Shown one piece after another: positions 20,807 to 43,562 of a stretch of DNA of 64,000 bases. The notes beneath the pieces are model-generated. The model was not told where the DNA came from and did not search any database. It was given only the letters and a program-made list of their open reading frames with translations. Within the stretch, counting starts at the first letter, position 1, and each line of letters opens with the position of its first letter. A program made the position numbers and the translations under genes. Source of the DNA: Streptomyces fagopyri (lineage in GTDB: Bacteria > Actinomycetota > Actinomycetes > Streptomycetales > Streptomycetaceae); contig NZ_CP045643.1 of the NCBI RefSeq assembly GCF_009498275.1, positions 1,240,001 to 1,304,000 on the forward strand, written 5' to 3'.

Positions 20807-21378
20807 CAGCCCGCCCACAGGCCACCGCGCCCCTCACCCCTCACCCCTCTCCCCTGACCACGTCTCCACCGCGTGGGGGTTCGGCCACCACCGACGCCGT
20901 TCACGGGCCGGCGATCTCGGAGGCCACTCCCCGCGGTGACGCGGGAGCCGGCCAGGCGGGGAGCGGTCACCACGGTCCGTAGTACGTGGTCGCGACCCGT
21001 AGCCGTCCCCGGAGTCGCGGCCCGCGGTCGTGGTCCGCGGTCGTAGTCCCGCGTCATGGCCCGACGCCATAGCCCGACGCCATGGCCCGACGCCATGGCC
21101 CGACGTCATGGCCCGACGTCATGGCCCGACGTCGTGGCCCGACGTCGTGGCCCGACGTCGTGGGGCCCGAAGCCGTGGGGCCCGAAGCCGTAGAGCCGGG
21201 ACCCGAAGCCGCAGGGCGAGATCCGGCCTGTCGATACCGATGTCACAAATTAAAGACATAAGCGGTCATATCTGGAAAGACGCAGGCTGTGACTTCGCCC
21301 GGAGCGCACCAGCCCGTTCGGTCGCCCTCCGCGCCCGACAAGCCGGGCAGTGGTCCCCGACTCCGTAAGGAACAGTGC
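20807..21378. other. Non-coding stretch with 13-bp tandem array
   Basis: No gene is supported here. It holds GC-rich spacer, the 13/15-bp tandem array at 21053-21186 and then a distinctly AT-richer patch (21240-21280), the probable promoter region of the phosphatase-GlxA gene. Confidence 0.6.
21053..21186. repeat. Tandem array: eight 13-bp plus two 15-bp units
   Basis: Eight consecutive copies of G(T/C)C(A/G)TGGCCCGAC-type units occupy 21053-21156. Two 15-bp derivatives containing GTGGGGCCCGAA follow at 21157-21186. Unit length is not a multiple of 3 or of the helical repeat. Confidence 0.92.
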
Positions 21379-37091: not shown

Positions 37092-37678
37092 TGACGACTG
37101 CCCCGCCGGCCCCGCGCCGCAAGCGGTCTTGACCGGGGTCCCGTTCCGGAAAGTGCCACGGCCCGGATCTGCCGGGTCCGGCGCTGCGTGAGCGGGAGCG
37201 CGCGTGAGCGGGAGCGCGCGTGAGCGGGAGCGCGCGTGAGCGGGAGCGCGCGTGAGCGGGAGCGCGCGTGAGCGGGAGCGCGCGTGAGCGGGAGCGCGCG
37301 TGAGCGGGAGCGCGCGTGAGCGGGGGCACGCGTGAGCGGGGGCGGCCGGCCAGAAGCCGGTGGCGGGGGGCGCCGTGGACCCTGCGTGTGTTCGCCACCG
37401 CGCCGGCCACGCTCGCACGCCCCTTGCCGGCCTGCCGTCCTGCCGTCCTCACGGTAGGGAATTCTCCGGAAATGTACGGTGTTCTGGTCATCACCGATTG
37501 AACACCCGCGGGCGACGCGTCGTCGCACCCCGACATCGCACGGTGCGGATGCGGTCGAGTGCCGTCCGCGCACACGCGCGGTGGCATCGGCGGACCGTCG
37601 CGGAAGGTTCCTGGAACAGCAGTGAGGCAGAGCGCTGTCCGGTGATGACAGCGCGCGACGCAGAAGCGGTGCGATCGA
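37092..37678. other. Non-coding stretch with 16-bp tandem array
   Basis: No gene is supported. The main content is the 160-bp array at 37186-37345. A less GC-rich patch near 37455-37500 may hold the promoter of the DMT gene. Confidence 0.6.
37186..37345. repeat. Ten-unit, 16-bp tandem repeat
   Basis: Eight exact copies of GCGTGAGCGGGAGCGC (37186-37313) are followed by two divergent ones (37314-37345). Because 16 is not a multiple of 3, each strand reads as shifting Arg/Ser/Ala repeats, not a gene. Confidence 0.97.
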
Positions 37679-38593
37679 ATGGCTCTGGCGATCTTCTTTG
37701 CCGTACTGGCCGCCGCCGGCAACGCACTGGGGACGGTGCTGCAACGCCGAGCGGTGCTGAACGTACCCGACACCCGGGCACAGGGGCTCCTCCTCGTCCG
37801 GGACCTGCTGCACAATCCGGCCTGGCTGGTGGGGATCCTCGGAGTGGTCTTCGCCGCGCTCTTCCAGGCCCTGGCTCTGAGGTCCGGATCGATGGCCGCG
37901 GTGCAACCGGTCTTCGTCCTCGAACTTCCACTGGCACTCATGATCGGCGGCATCGTCTTCAGGGTCCGCGTGTCCCGCAAGACGTGGGCGGCTGTGGCCT
38001 GCATCTTCGTGGGACTGGCGGTCGGCCTCTTCGCGGCCGCGCCGTCCGGCGGGCGGTCCCAGGTACCGGGGATGTGGTGGATGCCCGCCCTCGCCGTCGT
38101 CGTCACCGTGGGGGCCGTGCTCGTACTGACCGGTCTGCGGCGCCCCCACGGCCCCGCACGCGCGGCCTGCCTGGCCGCCGCGGCCGCCATCGGCAACGCG
38201 CTCACGGCCGCGCTGGTGAAGTCCGCCATGGAAGTCCTGTCGCGAGAGGGGGCGGCCGGATTCCTCCTCGCCTGGCAGACCTACGGCTTCGCCGTCGCCG
38301 GCTCGTCGTCCATCTTCCTGCTGGGGTACGCCATGCAGGGAGGACCGCTCATCGCGTCACAGCCCGCGCTCACACTGGGTGACGCCGCCGTCGGCTTCTG
38401 TCTCGGGGGAACGCTCTACGCGGAGTCACCGCGGCTGGGACTGTGGCTCGTGCCGGCGCTCCTGGGGGCCGCCCTCGTGTTCTACGGGGTCTTCGCGCTC
38501 TCTCGCTCCCGATGCCTCGCCGAGTGCGCCGCACCGGGCGGAGAGGAGGACGCGACGCGACAGGGGGAACGACCCGCCGCGGCAGCCATGTGA
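37679..38593 (+). CDS. DMT (EamA/NIPA-like) family transporter
   Basis: This 304-residue protein has about nine hydrophobic segments. It opens with MALAIFFAVLAAAGNALGTVLQRRAV, and SMAAVQPVFVLELPLALMIGG and the second-half repeat AAAIGNALTAALVKSAMEVL suggest the internal duplication of DMT-superfamily carriers. The substrate is unknown. The ribosome site before ATG 37679 is weak. It ends 97 bp from the convergent prs gene with a hairpin between. Confidence 0.85.
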   Translation: MALAIFFAVLAAAGNALGTVLQRRAVLNVPDTRAQGLLLVRDLLHNPAWLVGILGVVFAALFQALALRSGSMAAVQPVFVLELPLALMIGGIVFRVRVSRKTWAAVACIFVGLAVGLFAAAPSGGRSQVPGMWWMPALAVVVTVGAVLVLTGLRRPHGPARAACLAAAAAIGNALTAALVKSAMEVLSREGAAGFLLAWQTYGFAVAGSSSIFLLGYAMQGGPLIASQPALTLGDAAVGFCLGGTLYAESPRLGLWLVPALLGAALVFYGVFALSRSRCLAECAAPGGEEDATRQGERPAAAAM

Positions 38594-38623
38594 CACCTCC
38601 CCCGTCCGCGGACACCGGCGACC

Positions 38624-38639
38624 CCCGCGGCACCGCGGG
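38624..38639. terminator. Short hairpin between convergent genes
   Basis: CCCGCGG-CA-CCGCGGG folds into a short GC stem (effectively 6 bp with a 4-base loop) between the DMT transporter and prs. It could terminate either direction. Confidence 0.45.
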
Positions 38640-38690
38640 CGACACTCTCGCCGCCCGCGCGCAAGCGGGGAAGCCCCGGTCCCTTCCTGC

Positions 38691-39644
38691 CTATTCGCTC
38701 TGGGGCGCGTCGAACAGGGCGCTGACGGACTCGCCGTTGTGAATGCGCCGCACGGCCTCCGCGAGGGCCGGCGCGATGGACAGGATGCGCAGCTTCTCGG
38801 TGTGCTCCTCACGCGGCACGGGCACGGTGTTGGTGCACACGATCTCCAGGACGTCCTCCTGCTCGCTGAGCCGCTTGAGCGCACCCGCCGCGAACAGGCC
38901 GTGCGTACAGGCGACCCGGATCGACCGCGGCCCCAACTCCCTGAGCCGTTCGAGCAGTTCGAGTACGGTGCTGCCCTTGGCGATCTCGTCGTCGAGCACG
39001 ATGACATCGCGTCCGGTGATCTCACCGATGACGGAGCTGATGCTCACCCGGTCGTCGGCGAACCGCTGCTTGGCGCCCGCCGCCACCTGGGCGCCGATCA
39101 GCCGCGCGAAGGCCGCCGCCTCCTTGGCGTTGCCCAGATCGGGCGACACCACCGTCGTACGGGACAGGTCGTGCCCGCGGAAGTGCGCGGCCAGTTCGCG
39201 CAGCGCGTGCAGATGGTCGACCGGCACCGAGAAGAACCCGTGGACCTGCGGGGAGTGCAGCGTCATCGCCAGCACCCGGCTCGCCCCGGCCGCCACCAGC
39301 AGGTCGGCCACCAGCCGGCCGCCCATGGAGATACGCGGCATGTCCTTCTTGTCCGAACGCGCGTACGAGTAATGCGGCATGACCACCGTGATCCGCCCGG
39401 CGGACGCTCCCCTGGCCGCGTCGCACATCATCAGCAGCTCCACCAGGTGCTCCTGCACCGGGGTGACGAGCGGCTGCACGAGGAACACGTCACGCTCACG
39501 GCAGTTGGCCTGGAGCTGCACCTCCAGGCAGTCGTTGGCGAACCGGCTGACCCGGGTCGGGCTGAGGGGCACGCCCAGATGCGCGCAGACCTCTGCCGCC
39601 AGCTCGGGATGGGCACTACCGCTGAACACGGCGATGTCACGCAC
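38691..39644 (-). CDS. prs: Ribose-phosphate pyrophosphokinase
   Basis: This 317-residue PRPP synthetase has IAVFSGSAHPELAAEVCAHLGV at the N-terminus, the catalytic flexible loop YARSDKKDMPR (about residues 86-96), and the metal/PRPP-binding DVIVLDDEIAKGSTVLELL that replaces the more usual DDMIDTGGT. The last difference, and a non-standard neighbourhood, suggest a second or divergent Prs rather than the housekeeping copy. The GTG at 39644 is chosen on a GAGGAG ribosome site. It is divergent from the TetM-like gene. Confidence 0.9.
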   Translation of the reverse strand: MRDIAVFSGSAHPELAAEVCAHLGVPLSPTRVSRFANDCLEVQLQANCRERDVFLVQPLVTPVQEHLVELLMMCDAARGASAGRITVVMPHYSYARSDKKDMPRISMGGRLVADLLVAAGASRVLAMTLHSPQVHGFFSVPVDHLHALRELAAHFRGHDLSRTTVVSPDLGNAKEAAAFARLIGAQVAAGAKQRFADDRVSISSVIGEITGRDVIVLDDEIAKGSTVLELLERLRELGPRSIRVACTHGLFAAGALKRLSEQEDVLEIVCTNTVPVPREEHTEKLRILSIAPALAEAVRRIHNGESVSALFDAPQSE

Positions 39645-39823
39645 GACCGCTCCTCGCAAGATCGAACCGGATGCGCCGCCGGCCGGCATGATCGACCCGG
39701 GATGCGTGCTTCATCGTACTGGGCCCCGGGCAGGTGCCCCACCGGGAGAAATTCGGTTGCGTACGGTCACCGGCCGCACGCCATGATGGCACCGCCCACG
39801 CCTCTCACCCTCGGGAGAACGAC

Positions 39824-39937
39824 ATGCGCCGAGTCCTCGGAACGTCTCAGCCCCTCTGTCTGACGACCCCTCCCGAGGACTCGACCACGCATGCACACCC
39901 TGAACATCGGCATCCTGGCCCACGTCGACGCGGGTAA
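39824..39937 (+). CDS. Leader peptide ORF upstream of TetM-like gene
   Basis: A 37-codon frame begins ATG 39824 (MRRVLGTSQPLCLTTPP...) with GGGAG six bases upstream, a good ribosome site. It overlaps the start of the resistance gene in another frame and stops at 39935-39937. Codons 3-6 lie in the 5' arm of a hairpin whose 3' arm contains the GAGG of the downstream gene. This arrangement is that of translational attenuation, as known for erm and cat genes. I infer function from position only. Confidence 0.6.
   Translation: MRRVLGTSQPLCLTTPPEDSTTHAHPEHRHPGPRRRG
39830..39883 (+). promoter_or_regulatory. RBS-sequestering hairpin (attenuator)
   Basis: CGAGTCCTCGG at 39830-39840 pairs perfectly with CCGAGGACTCG at 39873-39883 (11 bp, 32-base loop). 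The 3' arm contains the GAGG (39875-39878) that serves ATG 39891. A ribosome paused in the leader ORF would open it. Confidence 0.68.
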
Positions 39938-41747
39938 GACCAGCCTCACCGAGCGACTGCTGTTCGACGGCGGCGCCCTCGACCGGCTCGGCAGCGTCGA
40001 CGCGGGCGACACCCGCACCGACGACGGCGAGATCGAGCGCCGGCGCGGGATCACCATCCGCTCGGCCGTCGCCGCCTTCACCGCGGGCGACGTCCAGATC
40101 AACCTGATCGACACCCCTGGGCACTCCGACTTCATCGCCGAGGTCGAGCGGGCCCTGGAGGTCCTGGACGGCGCCGTGCTGCTGCTCTCCGCCGTGGAGG
40201 GCGTCCAGGCACAAACCCGCGTGCTCATGAGGACCCTGCGGCGGCTCCGGCTGCCCACGCTCGTGTTCGTCAACAAGATCGACCGGCCGGGGGCGCGGGA
40301 GGAGGAGCTCCTCGACGACGTCCGGCGCCGTCTCACCCCGTACGTCGTCCCGCTCACCCGCGTGCGGGACATCGGCGGCCCCCACGCCCGTGTCCTACCG
40401 CGTCCGCTGGACGAAACGGCGATCGGCACACTCGCGGAGGTGGACACCGGCGTGCTCGCCCGGGTCGTGGACGGTCCCGCGCCGACCCCGGACGTGCTGG
40501 ACGCCGCCCTCACCGCGCGCACCGCGGACGGCTCCCTCCATCCGGTCCTCTTCGGGTCCGCCCTGGGCGGTCAGGGTGTGCCCGAACTCGTCGAGGCACT
40601 GGTCCGGACGGTGCCGCGGCCGGCGGTTCCCGGCTCCGGGCGGCCACGCGGCACGGTCTTCGCCGTGCGGCCCGGTCCCGGCGGCGAACGCACCGCGTAT
40701 CTGCGCCTGTACGAGGGCCGGGTGACGGCTCGTCAGAACCTGACGTTCATGCGGCGCGATGCCGACGGCCGCACCTGCCCGGTGCCCGGCCGCGCACGTG
40801 AACTGGAGGTCGTCGGGCGGCCCGGCGCGGTTGCCCTCACCGCGGGCGACATTGCCGCGCTCCGAGGCGTGAGCGGTGTCCGCGTCGGCGACCGGCTCGG
40901 TGAAGTCCCGGACCGCGCGGCGCAGTTCGCCGCACCGACGCTGGAGACGGTGGTGCGGGCGAAGGACCCGCACCAGGCGGCCCCGCTGCGCTCGGCGCTG
41001 CTCGCCCTGGCCGACCAGGACCCGTTGCTGCGGGCCCGCCCGGCCCCGTCGGGCGCCACCTCTCTGCTCCTCTACGGCGAGGTCCAGCTGGAGGTCCTCG
41101 CGGCCACACTCGCCCAGGACTTCGGCATCGAGGCGGCGTTCGAGCCGAGCAGGGTGCGGCTCCTGGAGCGGCCGGCCGGCACCGGGGAGGCGTACGAGGA
41201 GATCCGGCGGCACGGCCACCTCGGGTTCTGGGCGACCGTGGGCCTGCGCGTGGGACCGGGACCGCTCGGTTCGGGCGGAGTCTTCACCTACGAGACCGAA
41301 CTCGGCGCCCTCCCCCGCGCGTTCCACCAGGCGATCGAGGACACCGTCCACACCACCCTGCTCACCGGAACGCACGACCGGCCGGTCACGGACTACCGGG
41401 TCACACTAACCCGCTCCGGATTCGTCGCGCCGCTCAGCACGGCCGCCGACTTCCGGGGCCTCACCCCCATCGTGCTGCGGCGCGCCCTGGAGCGGGCAGG
41501 GACGCACGTGTACGAGCCCTGCCACACCTTCGAGGTGGAGGTCCCGCTCGACGCGCTGGCACCGGTGACCGCGCAACTCGCTTCCCTGGCAGCCGAGTTC
41601 CGGGAGACCACCGGGGGACACACCTCCTGGCTGGTCACGGGTGAGCTGCCGGCCCGGCGGGTGCGGGACATCGAACTGCGGCTGCCGGGGCTCACCCGCG
41701 GGGAAGGCGTCTGGTGGTCGCGCCCGTCGGGCGACCGGCGCGTGTAG
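39891..41747 (+). CDS. TetM/OtrA-like ribosomal protection GTPase
   Basis: This 618-residue translational GTPase of the TetM/OtrA type, slightly shorter than TetM, has G1 AHVDAGKTS (residues 10-18), G2 RRRGITIR, G3 DTPGHSDF (74-81), G4 NKID (128-131) and G5 FGSALGGQGV. The domain IV tip reads FVAPLSTAADFRGLTPIVL, equivalent to the SPVSTPADFR loop of TetM that displaces tetracycline. The product should release tetracycline or similar ligands from the ribosome, though a non-tetracycline role is possible. Its RBS (GAGG) lies in a hairpin and a leader ORF precedes it. Confidence 0.92.
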   Translation: MHTLNIGILAHVDAGKTSLTERLLFDGGALDRLGSVDAGDTRTDDGEIERRRGITIRSAVAAFTAGDVQINLIDTPGHSDFIAEVERALEVLDGAVLLLSAVEGVQAQTRVLMRTLRRLRLPTLVFVNKIDRPGAREEELLDDVRRRLTPYVVPLTRVRDIGGPHARVLPRPLDETAIGTLAEVDTGVLARVVDGPAPTPDVLDAALTARTADGSLHPVLFGSALGGQGVPELVEALVRTVPRPAVPGSGRPRGTVFAVRPGPGGERTAYLRLYEGRVTARQNLTFMRRDADGRTCPVPGRARELEVVGRPGAVALTAGDIAALRGVSGVRVGDRLGEVPDRAAQFAAPTLETVVRAKDPHQAAPLRSALLALADQDPLLRARPAPSGATSLLLYGEVQLEVLAATLAQDFGIEAAFEPSRVRLLERPAGTGEAYEEIRRHGHLGFWATVGLRVGPGPLGSGGVFTYETELGALPRAFHQAIEDTVHTTLLTGTHDRPVTDYRVTLTRSGFVAPLSTAADFRGLTPIVLRRALERAGTHVYEPCHTFEVEVPLDALAPVTAQLASLAAEFRETTGGHTSWLVTGELPARRVRDIELRLPGLTRGEGVWWSRPSGDRRV

Positions 41748-42028
41748 GGCCGCTGCGGCACGCGCGCGGTCCGGCGCCGGTCGCGCGCGTCCGGGGCCCA
41801 CCGTGTGCAGCCGGACGGGCGGGGTGCGCCTGGTGGACACGGCGTACCCCGCCCACGGCCGTGCCGCGCGTCGCGCACCGCACGTCCCGGGGCCGGCGAC
41901 ACGCCCCCGCCCCACCCCCCGCGCCGTCGCGGACACCCCTGCCCTCCGAACTGACACCCGTTCACCAACGAACGTGTCTACCAACGGGATTGGCGGGCAT
42001 CCGGGGAGCAGGAAGGAGGGCCGTCGAC

Positions 42029-42679
42029 ATGACGACGTCCATCAAGCGCATGCCCGTGTGGGCCAAGGTGATCACCGCCGTGGTACTGGTCCTCGTGGTG
42101 CTGTTCGCCGGGCTGCGGCTGGCCGTTCTCCCCGGGCTGCGCGATCTGTTCGGCACGGAGACGCACGACCGCTCCGGGCCCGCGCTCCTGCAGTCGATCC
42201 AGGACATGAGCCGCTACGACGCCGCCTCCGGCAACTTCCAGGTGGTGGTGGACCTGGAGAAGGACGCGAAGTACCTGCCCGACGCGATCCGGGGGACACG
42301 CACCCTGTACGTGGGCGCCGGTACGGTCGACGCGTATGTCGACCTCGGCACGCTCGCCAAGAGCGACGTGACGGTCAACTCCGACCGCACCTCGGCGACC
42401 CTGCGGCTGCCCCACGCGGTCCTCGGCAAGCCCGCGCTCGACCCCGACCGTTCGTACGCCGTGTCCAAGCAGCGCGGTCTACTGGACCGGCTCGGCGACA
42501 TCTTCTCCGACAACCCGAACAGCGAGCGGTCGGTGCAGAAACTCGCGGCGAAGCACATCGGCGACGCCGCGAAGGACAGCCACCTGACCGCACGAGCCGA
42601 GAAGAACACCACGAGCATGCTCGACGGCCTGCTGCGTTCGCTCGGCTTCACCGACGTGACCGTCACCTACGGCACCTGA
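42029..42679 (+). CDS. DUF4230 membrane-anchored protein
   Basis: This 216-residue protein has one N-terminal membrane segment (VWAKVITAVVLVLVVLFAGLRLAV, about residues 10-33). The extracytoplasmic DUF4230 domain includes ALLQSIQDMSRYDAASGNFQVVVDLEKDAKYLPDAIRGTRTLYVGAGTVDAYVDLG. Function is unknown. A strong GGAAGGAGG (42011-42019) fixes ATG 42029. It is followed after 70 bp by a VanZ-like gene in the same direction. Confidence 0.9.
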   Translation: MTTSIKRMPVWAKVITAVVLVLVVLFAGLRLAVLPGLRDLFGTETHDRSGPALLQSIQDMSRYDAASGNFQVVVDLEKDAKYLPDAIRGTRTLYVGAGTVDAYVDLGTLAKSDVTVNSDRTSATLRLPHAVLGKPALDPDRSYAVSKQRGLLDRLGDIFSDNPNSERSVQKLAAKHIGDAAKDSHLTARAEKNTTSMLDGLLRSLGFTDVTVTYGT

Positions 42680-42749
42680 CACGTGAGTGGTGCACGGCAA
42701 TGCGGGTATCCGCCTTCAGCCAGAGAGATGTTGAAACCAGGAGGATCGA

Positions 42750-43427
42750 GTGATCCGCACGGCGTTGGGCACACGTGCCGCGAAATCCGGTCGCCGGACG
42801 GCGGCCCAGCCTAAGGACGAGCGAAAGACACCGGCACGGAGCAGGCTCAGGAAGGCGTCCGTGGACAAGGCGAAGTCCTCCGCCCGGGACAGGACGAAGT
42901 CACCGGCGAAGGCCAAGCGCGAGGTGGCGGCGAAGGAGCGGCGCAGGTCGCTCCCGCTGCTGGTCCGGCTGCTGGTCATGCTGCTCGCCTTCGTGGCCAT
43001 GGTGGGGTTCGCCGTCGTGCTGGCCCGGCTGACGCTGGAACCGTCCCCGGCCTCCAAGGCGTTGATCCACACCAATCTGCATCCCGGCCGCTCGCTGCGC
43101 GCCTATCTCGACCAGCCGGCGCTGCGCGACGCCGTGAAGCAGATCGGCGGGAACATCCTGCTCGGTGTGCCGTTCGGTGTACTGCTGCCGGTCCTGGTCC
43201 CGAGGACCCGCGGCATTCTGCGGGTGGTGGTGCTCACCGCCGCGGTGATGCTGCTGGTGGAGCTCGCCCAGGGAGCGTTCATCACCGGACGTGCCTTCGA
43301 CATCGACGACGTCATCCTCAACACCAGTGGCGCGCTGCTGGGATATCTGCTGCTGGGACGCCGGATGGGCCGGGCGGTGCATCCGCGCCGCCGCTTCCGC
43401 GACCGGCGCGGCACCGAGGAGGCCTGA
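42750..43427 (+). CDS. VanZ-like membrane protein
   Basis: This 225-residue protein has a 65-residue Lys/Arg-rich cytoplasmic N-terminus, then helices of the VanZ fold: LLVRLLVMLLAFVAMVGFAVVLARLTL; KQIGGNILLGVPFGVLLPVLV with the conserved N-x-x-L-x-x-P-F-G; and VVLTAAVMLLVELAQGAFITGRAFDIDDVILNTSGALLGYLLL. VanZ proteins can confer teicoplanin-type resistance, but most homologues are of unknown role. GTG 42750 has GGAGG six bases upstream. The basic N-terminal extension is longer than usual. Confidence 0.92.
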   Translation: MIRTALGTRAAKSGRRTAAQPKDERKTPARSRLRKASVDKAKSSARDRTKSPAKAKREVAAKERRRSLPLLVRLLVMLLAFVAMVGFAVVLARLTLEPSPASKALIHTNLHPGRSLRAYLDQPALRDAVKQIGGNILLGVPFGVLLPVLVPRTRGILRVVVLTAAVMLLVELAQGAFITGRAFDIDDVILNTSGALLGYLLLGRRMGRAVHPRRRFRDRRGTEEA

Positions 43428-43442
43428 GCACCCCCTACGTTC

Positions 43443-43454
43443 TGGTCCGGACCA
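43443..43454. promoter_or_regulatory. DasR-like (dre) palindrome
   Basis: TGGTC-CG-GACCA keeps the TGGTC/GACCA half-sites of DasR dre elements (TGGTCTAGACCA in the known consensus) and abuts the -35 box at 43460. It is a candidate GntR-family site controlling the glucanase. Confidence 0.5.
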
Positions 43455-43459
43455 AAGTA

Positions 43460-43488
43460 TTGACACCCCCTTACCTCACTCCTTAAAT
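43460..43488 (+). promoter_or_regulatory. HrdB-type promoter of GH16 gene
   Basis: TTGACA (43460-43465) and TTAAAT (43483-43488) are separated by 17 bp, upstream of TTG 43563. This is unusually close to a vegetative consensus for this GC-rich genome. Confidence 0.7.
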
Positions 43489-43492
43489 CAAG
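43470..43492. promoter_or_regulatory. 23-bp motif, copy A (shared with ROK locus)
   Basis: CTTACCTCAC, three variable bases, then a TTAAATCAAG end. It matches the motif at 49377-49399 at 18 of 23 positions. It covers the promoter spacer and -10 box. Confidence 0.65.
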
Positions 43493-43562
43493 AGGCGAAG
43501 CACGCACCCCCCACCTCAGTCGGCACCCTCCTCCCCAGGAGTGCCGTACGGAAGGGAGAGTC

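Follow-up and report, generated by a model that had tools for sequence, protein, structure and literature searches.

The question raised by this locus is how a resistance gene whose ribosome-binding site appears to be locked in a hairpin comes to be translated, and what part is played by the short open reading frame that precedes the gene and runs into it. The gene lies in the window, by which we mean the whole stretch of 64,000 nucleotides analysed here, taken from the 8.88 Mb genome of Streptomyces fagopyri. The original prediction described the gene as TetM-like. It does encode a ribosomal protection protein, with EF-G domains recognised by Pfam, but it scores as Otr(A) and not as Tet(M): residues 2-610 of the product align with NF000120 at 1055.3 bits, against a cut-off of 900. 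Among the best 80 of 281 named relatives, the closest are from Streptomyces. A second ribosomal protection gene in the same genome (L002, G000:C1:1186289-1188145, minus strand) is 51% identical to otrA, lies about 92 kb before it, and shares the layout of overlapping leader and hairpin, with arm sequences that differ from those in the window. Divergently from otrA, a ribose-phosphate diphosphokinase gene occupies 38691-39689 on the minus strand, and 134 bases separate its start from the leader ATG. Elsewhere in the window, a 16-bp tandem repeat (37181-37344, 10.2 copies, 97% match, GCGCGCGTGAGCGGGA) falls inside long minus-strand open reading frames that are possibly not genes, and a 13-bp tandem repeat (9 copies, 94% match, CCCGACGTCATGG) is found at 21048-21163.

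Table 1. Features of the otrA leader region, with positions in the window.
Feature	Position	Strand	Basis
WblC-type promoter motif: GAAATT, TTGCGT, CATGAT	39748..39787	+	match to PMC7157823 motif
Leader ribosome-binding site GGGAG	39813..39817	+	sequence; SD-like sites also precede homologues' leaders
Outer helix, 5' strand, includes leader AUG	39823..39828	+	fold, pair counts
Leader ORF, 37 codons, 47-base overlap with otrA	39824..39937	+	sequence; phase and stop position conserved
Hairpin 5' arm, leader codons 3-6, CGAGTCCTCGG	39830..39840	+	sequence, fold
Hairpin 3' arm with otrA ribosome site GAGG (39875-39878), CCGAGGACTCG	39873..39883	+	sequence, fold, SD-pairing test
Outer helix, 3' strand, includes otrA AUG	39888..39893	+	fold, pair counts
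otrA, tetracycline resistance ribosomal protection protein Otr(A), 618 aa	39891..41747	+	NCBIfam NF000120, Pfam EF-G domains
otrA P-loop Gly codon GGT; the leader stop TAA consists of its T and the two bases that follow	39933..39935	+	sequence

The 37-codon open reading frame with its own ribosome site that had been proposed is indeed present (Table 1). Six bases separate GGGAG from the leader ATG (39824-39826), the stop TAA occupies 39935-39937, and the encoded peptide is MRRVLGTSQPLCLTTPPEDSTTHAHPEHRHPGPRRRG. The 5' region therefore holds one element of a translational attenuator, namely a leader with a ribosome site of its own. This leader is read in a different frame from otrA, and its stop sits within the codons of the otrA P-loop. 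The 11-bp hairpin proposed to hide GAGG in its 3' arm was likewise borne out: all 11 pairs of bases in the two arms are complementary, and the otrA ATG begins at 39891. The segment 39824-39893 is predicted to fold at -31.4 kcal/mol (z -6.14), with none of 200 dinucleotide shuffles equally stable; for 39794-39910 z is -3.77, again with 0 of 200 shuffles equally stable. The predicted fold contains one main hairpin, and through the outer helix the leader AUG pairs with the otrA AUG. Folding thus predicts the other element of an attenuator, in which the SD of the gene is sequestered by a helix whose second arm lies in the leader.

Close relatives were of limited help in judging this helix. The alignment comprised 47 of 77 references, all Streptomyces-type, and its consensus helix core is 7 bp; the fourth of the 11 pairs in the window forms in only 3 of the 47. 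Covariation is weak and does not stand out clearly from shuffled or slid controls: in 500 shuffles the covariation score was equalled or passed 13 times, the paired cells 11 times, the both-side changes 58 and 70 times, and the pair types 110 times, and in some slid versions of the helix both-side changes are equal or more numerous. Given that these 47 relatives are too conserved to decide, class-wide swap and shuffle tests were added. At gathering thresholds, Rfam contributed no family within the window. With a covariance model built on the element itself (R1), five matches with E up to 0.1 were obtained in 21 genomes, 150 candidates being scored in each; all five precede otrA-type genes, one of them being the window's own.

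The layout was compared across 137 places, comprising 79 named relatives with upstream sequence from the best 80 of 281, 56 places from a class-wide search, the window, and its paralogue L002. The class-wide search (E up to 1e-100) located otrA-type genes in 55 of 394 genomes, at 59 places. Two of these belong to the genome of the window, and 56 of the remaining 57 were used, the match in G384, which begins at residue 75, being left out. Also omitted were L059, for which there is no upstream sequence, and L093, which is the gene of the window itself. Only 6 of the 394 genomes pass the Otr(A) cut-off, and most of the places are otrA-type relatives. The counts are not independent, since the named and class-wide genome sets overlap (131 records represent 129 distinct regions) and 78 of 127 records share one arm cluster.

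The leader frame enters the gene and stops near the P-loop in 134 of the 137 places. The stop lies two bases into the P-loop Gly codon (+2) in 114 of them (110 by script, together with L088, L110, L137 and L126), three codons earlier (-7) in 13 (12 by script and L140) and at +17 in four, all in a single phase. An overlapping leader with a -7 stop is also a feature of the otrA of the Streptomyces rimosus type (L084, L087). Three places (L075, L122, L129) have leaders in another frame that stop at +13; there the P-loop Gly codon is GGA rather than GGT, and the stop falls 13 bases past the codon start. No leader reaches the conserved start of the gene in three further places (L079, L112, L144). 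The leader ATG lies 55, 58, 61, 64, 67 or 70 bases from the otrA start in 124 of the 127 records for which both starts could be assigned, which is a single phase, and 65 bases from it in three. The scripts for the Gly column and the stop class accepted only leaders with Arg (CG) as codon 2, and the stop-class script, which fed the swap, SD-pairing, footprint-fold and distance tests, favoured the common frame. When leaders were listed free of the Arg requirement, each one stopping near the P-loop still had a candidate start of M or V followed by R; L140, with an MP start, falls outside the Arg-requiring scripts.

The +2 stop arises from the use of GGT for the Gly of GKT. This codon is used at the P-loop Gly column in 69 of 78 homologues, compared with 528 of 4780 other Gly codons (11%), and the column ranks first for GGT among 52 conserved Gly columns (median 8.8%). 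Two readable EF-G-like paralogues in the same genome carry GGC at this Gly. The -7 stop is supplied by Val GTT in 11 of the 12 scripted places and by Ile ATT in the twelfth; GTT accounts for 44 of 4047 Val codons (1.1%). GTT and the P-loop GGT never occur together, GGT being found in 0 of 11 records with GTT versus 110 of 116 (Fisher 5.6e-12, uncorrected for descent), and a rough tree of ~95 N-terminal residues implies about 11 changes of stop class. If the GGT stop were removed, the leader frame would continue for a median of 69 nt (upper quartile 753), and in 20 of 110 records the frame beyond it meets no stop within the stretch read. Judged from this codon usage, the leader stop codon is under selection.

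Such a stop might serve a simpler purpose. Under constitutive low-level coupling, leader ribosomes would end in otrA, back up and start otrA, and this step would sense no drug, induction coming only from WblC at the promoter described below. Ribosomes that terminate and then back up are known to start the lysis gene of phage MS2. The strong retention of a leader stop within otrA is what this explanation would lead one to expect, with the stop beginning 44 nt past the beginning of the otrA start codon in 78 of 124 records; the distance varies from 26 to 89 nt, however, and the explanation leaves unaccounted for the complementarity, seen in one clade after another, between the otrA SD and the codons near the leader start. 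We therefore regard it as unlikely.

This complementarity is widespread. In 123 of 127 records, folding predicts a pairing of the otrA SD with leader nt 4-30 at P>0.5, and with longer flanks the same is predicted for 121 of 125 distinct regions. The original prediction had staked itself on leader and hairpin being conserved in orthologues, and conservation is what these figures and the leader frame both indicate. The arms form 16 clusters over the 127 records, and their independence is limited because ten clusters are single records, one holds 78 of the 127 and a second holds 18. Among the 16 cluster representatives the mean pairing is 0.63, versus 0.25 when the intervening stretch is shuffled, with 0 of 100 shuffled sets as high. 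Their own arms pair at a mean of -13.35 kcal/mol, versus -10.48 (sd 0.76) for arms exchanged between representatives (p 0.00035). Pairing of SD and leader fails in four of the 16 (L081, L082, L086, L095) and, with longer flanks, in L081, L086, L095 and L099, and own-arm pairing ranks only 12, 12 and 16 of 16 in L082, L095 and L125. Four records, including the S. rimosus pair L084 and L087, yielded no start with an SD and were therefore excluded from the pairing tests. The arms vary by clade (for example UCCUCGG/CCGAGGA, UUCAUGUCC/GGACAUGA, UUCGGGUCC/GGACUCGAA), and across these sequences the hairpin, like the stop codon, looks to be selected.

It is accordingly hard to see the open frame and the hairpin as functionless products of chance in GC-rich DNA. 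Open frames are common here, 56 of at least 20 aa overlapping 38000-43500, but the stop codon, the phase and the pairing are conserved despite diverged sequence across families of the class, and the fold stands far below its shuffles (z as above). Chance is an extremely improbable explanation.

Conservation of the layout reaches much further than that of the leader peptide. Codon positions were compared in 62 of 78 loci, after seven divergent leaders and nine with a 3-base deletion had been dropped. At leader codons 7-16, changes at positions 1, 2 and 3 number 70, 65 and 55, compared with 89, 76 and 287 in 50 otrA codons; no third-position excess is thus seen at these codons of the 62 ungapped leaders. 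The peptide in the window departs from the common QRPxRTTV, and 3-base deletions in the hairpin loop are tolerated among relatives. The MR(R) start is steady, and its codons also fall within the predicted helices. A conserved arrest peptide of the erm and cat type was not found in this comparison, and the suggestion that the leader peptide MRRVLGTSQPLCLTT matters as it does in erm is not supported by it. Drug-specific arrest by the nascent peptide as in ermCL, where peptide and drug together stop the ribosome at a set codon, could draw on the starting MR and on a glutamine near codon 9, both of which recur in several clades, but the even spread of changes, the unlike peptide in the window and the tolerated loop deletions make it quite improbable. 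As the amino acids of the leader interior are not conserved, peptide-specific arrest is unlikely, and the position of the ribosome rather than the nascent peptide would be the sensor. Of translational attenuation as it was first proposed here, the architecture stands (leader, predicted hairpin and conserved layout), whereas the erm-like role of the peptide is not supported.

A promoter can be proposed for this region from the WblC motif, which is given in a passage of PMC7157823 as GAAAWY, 3 bp, TKGMNN, 16-19 bp and TANNNT. Our search pattern left the first T of the -10 TANNNT free, the window having CATGAT. A candidate motif of this type precedes the leader, composed of GAAATT (39748-39753), 3 bp (CGG), TTGCGT (39757-39762), 19 bp and CATGAT (39782-39787). 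The pattern is matched by 52 of 131 records (79 unmatched) and by none of the base shuffles, and in 46 of the 52 the predicted start lies 24-33 nt upstream of the leader. L002 and its like carry, by eye, a GTTAAT variant that is outside the strict pattern. Streptomyces coelicolor tetM (SCO0783) is named among the WblC-activated genes in the same passages (PMC7157823). The predicted transcription start of otrA, at about 39794-39795, is upstream of the leader, and not downstream of 39840, where the original prediction would have failed. A simple scan of 39640-40200 found no classical sigma-70-like site.

Transcription attenuation as in Tn916-type tetM has a precedent in Enterococcus tetM, which is listed as transcription-attenuated in a passage of PMC5418344. 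At otrA, by comparison, a simple consensus scan for intrinsic-type terminators returned nothing terminator-like on either strand of 39640-40200, and the hairpin ends on the SD, with no U run. This mode of control is very improbable for otrA.

We conclude that otrA is probably controlled by a translational attenuator with an overlapping leader, which is opened by a ribosome held near the leader start. Transcription would begin at about 39795 and be raised by WblC under translation stress. When the drug is absent, ribosomes would initiate on the leader and traverse all of it, and little OtrA would be made because the hairpin would re-form behind them and because they would sweep the otrA ribosome site and start codon. 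A drug that holds a ribosome at the leader start or in its first codons would expose the gene: the footprint of the ribosome, with a 3' edge at about +16 to +18, would cover the 5' arm, GAGG would be freed, and other ribosomes could initiate otrA. Leader translation would also need to terminate soon after the otrA start, and for this reason an uncommon codon in the P-loop region would be kept as the leader stop.

The 5' arm in the window spans leader +7 to +17, and the footprint edge of a ribosome stalled on toiL is given as +16 to +18 in a passage of PMC12121999, so that a ribosome at the start codon would cover the pairing site in this genome. Across the records, the leader bases that pair with the SD centre at a median of +13 (upper quartile +20, maximum +25), and in some other clades a ribosome a few codons past the leader start would be needed. 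Against the model, a static fold of 125 regions with the footprint of a start-codon ribosome blocked frees the SD only in part: its median openness rises from 0.01 to no more than 0.41 (0.00 to 0.46 in the window), exceeding 0.5 in 28 regions and rising by more than 0.1 in 102.

A sensor that reads ribosome position would fit tetracyclines and other drugs that stall ribosomes at start codons. By analogy, given the gene family and the precedents, tetracycline would be the likeliest inducer. A broader reading, on which we are evenly divided, is that the element is an ancestral actinomycete attenuator, in which the GTP-binding loop of otrA encodes the stop of the sensor open reading frame and sweeping leader ribosomes silence otrA until a start-codon-stalling drug appears. 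The need for a leader stop would then fix the uncommon codon GGT or GTT in a catalytic motif that is essential, and a single design would respond to tetracyclines as well as to other initiation-stage inhibitors, since ribosome position and not peptide would be read.

In cat attenuation, too, a leader open reading frame has its own SD and the resistance gene has its SD buried in RNA structure; the erm and cat leaders end upstream of the gene, and their arrest is drug-specific. In contrast, the otrA-type leader enters the gene in the 134 places given above, lacks interior peptide conservation and has one main predicted hairpin. A leader with its own SD and a hidden resistance-gene SD are likewise described for ermC in passages of PMC5418344 and PMC10219788. 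That a ribosomal protection gene can be under translational attenuation is already known, Bacteroides tetQ being listed as an example in PMC5418344. The tetQ of CTnDOT resembles otrA as a ribosomal protection gene with a leader attenuator, and it answers tetracycline; its uORF has only four codons, as cited in a passage of PMC12121999, whereas the otrA leader has at least 30 codons, overlaps the gene, and occurs in actinomycetes with a WblC-type promoter.

The passages used from PMC12121999 also describe toiL of Escherichia coli, where tetracycline stalls ribosomes at the start codon of the uORF and frees the next SD. In toiL-topAI, as in the otrA leader, sequence within the uORF base-pairs with the downstream gene's SD. 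However, toiL has eight codons, starts 139 nt upstream and ends before the gene, whereas the otrA leader overlaps its gene, and the target of toiL is a toxin-antitoxin system with Rho termination following, whereas otrA is a resistance gene. The uORFs of wblC/whiB7 and ABCF genes in Streptomyces are actinomycete uORFs like the otrA leader and answer ribosome-targeting drugs, as stated in parts of PMC11550727 and PMC12421871. Transcription attenuation via terminators is reported or predicted for them, which differs from otrA with its lack of terminator-like sites in the scan; the response of tiaA, according to the same passages, was seen only in translational reporters. No description of the otrA leader was found in the titles, abstract starts and selected passages covered, subscription papers lying mostly outside this scope, and within the same scope we found no earlier report of the overlapping layout, the P-loop-coded stop, the class-wide spread or the combination with a WblC-type promoter. 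In the relevant passages, PMC6100412 contains otrA, Streptomyces and 'leader peptide', but in unrelated places, and PMC6685928 mentions no leader for Tet proteins.

If the proposed control is true, translational attenuation of ribosomal protection genes would be widespread in actinomycetes, the group that includes the tetracycline makers, and it would be stacked beneath the WblC transcriptional response. The locus would also illustrate clearly how a regulatory stop codon can force uncommon codons into a catalytic motif, and the importance of the leader would therefore be legible from the sequence.
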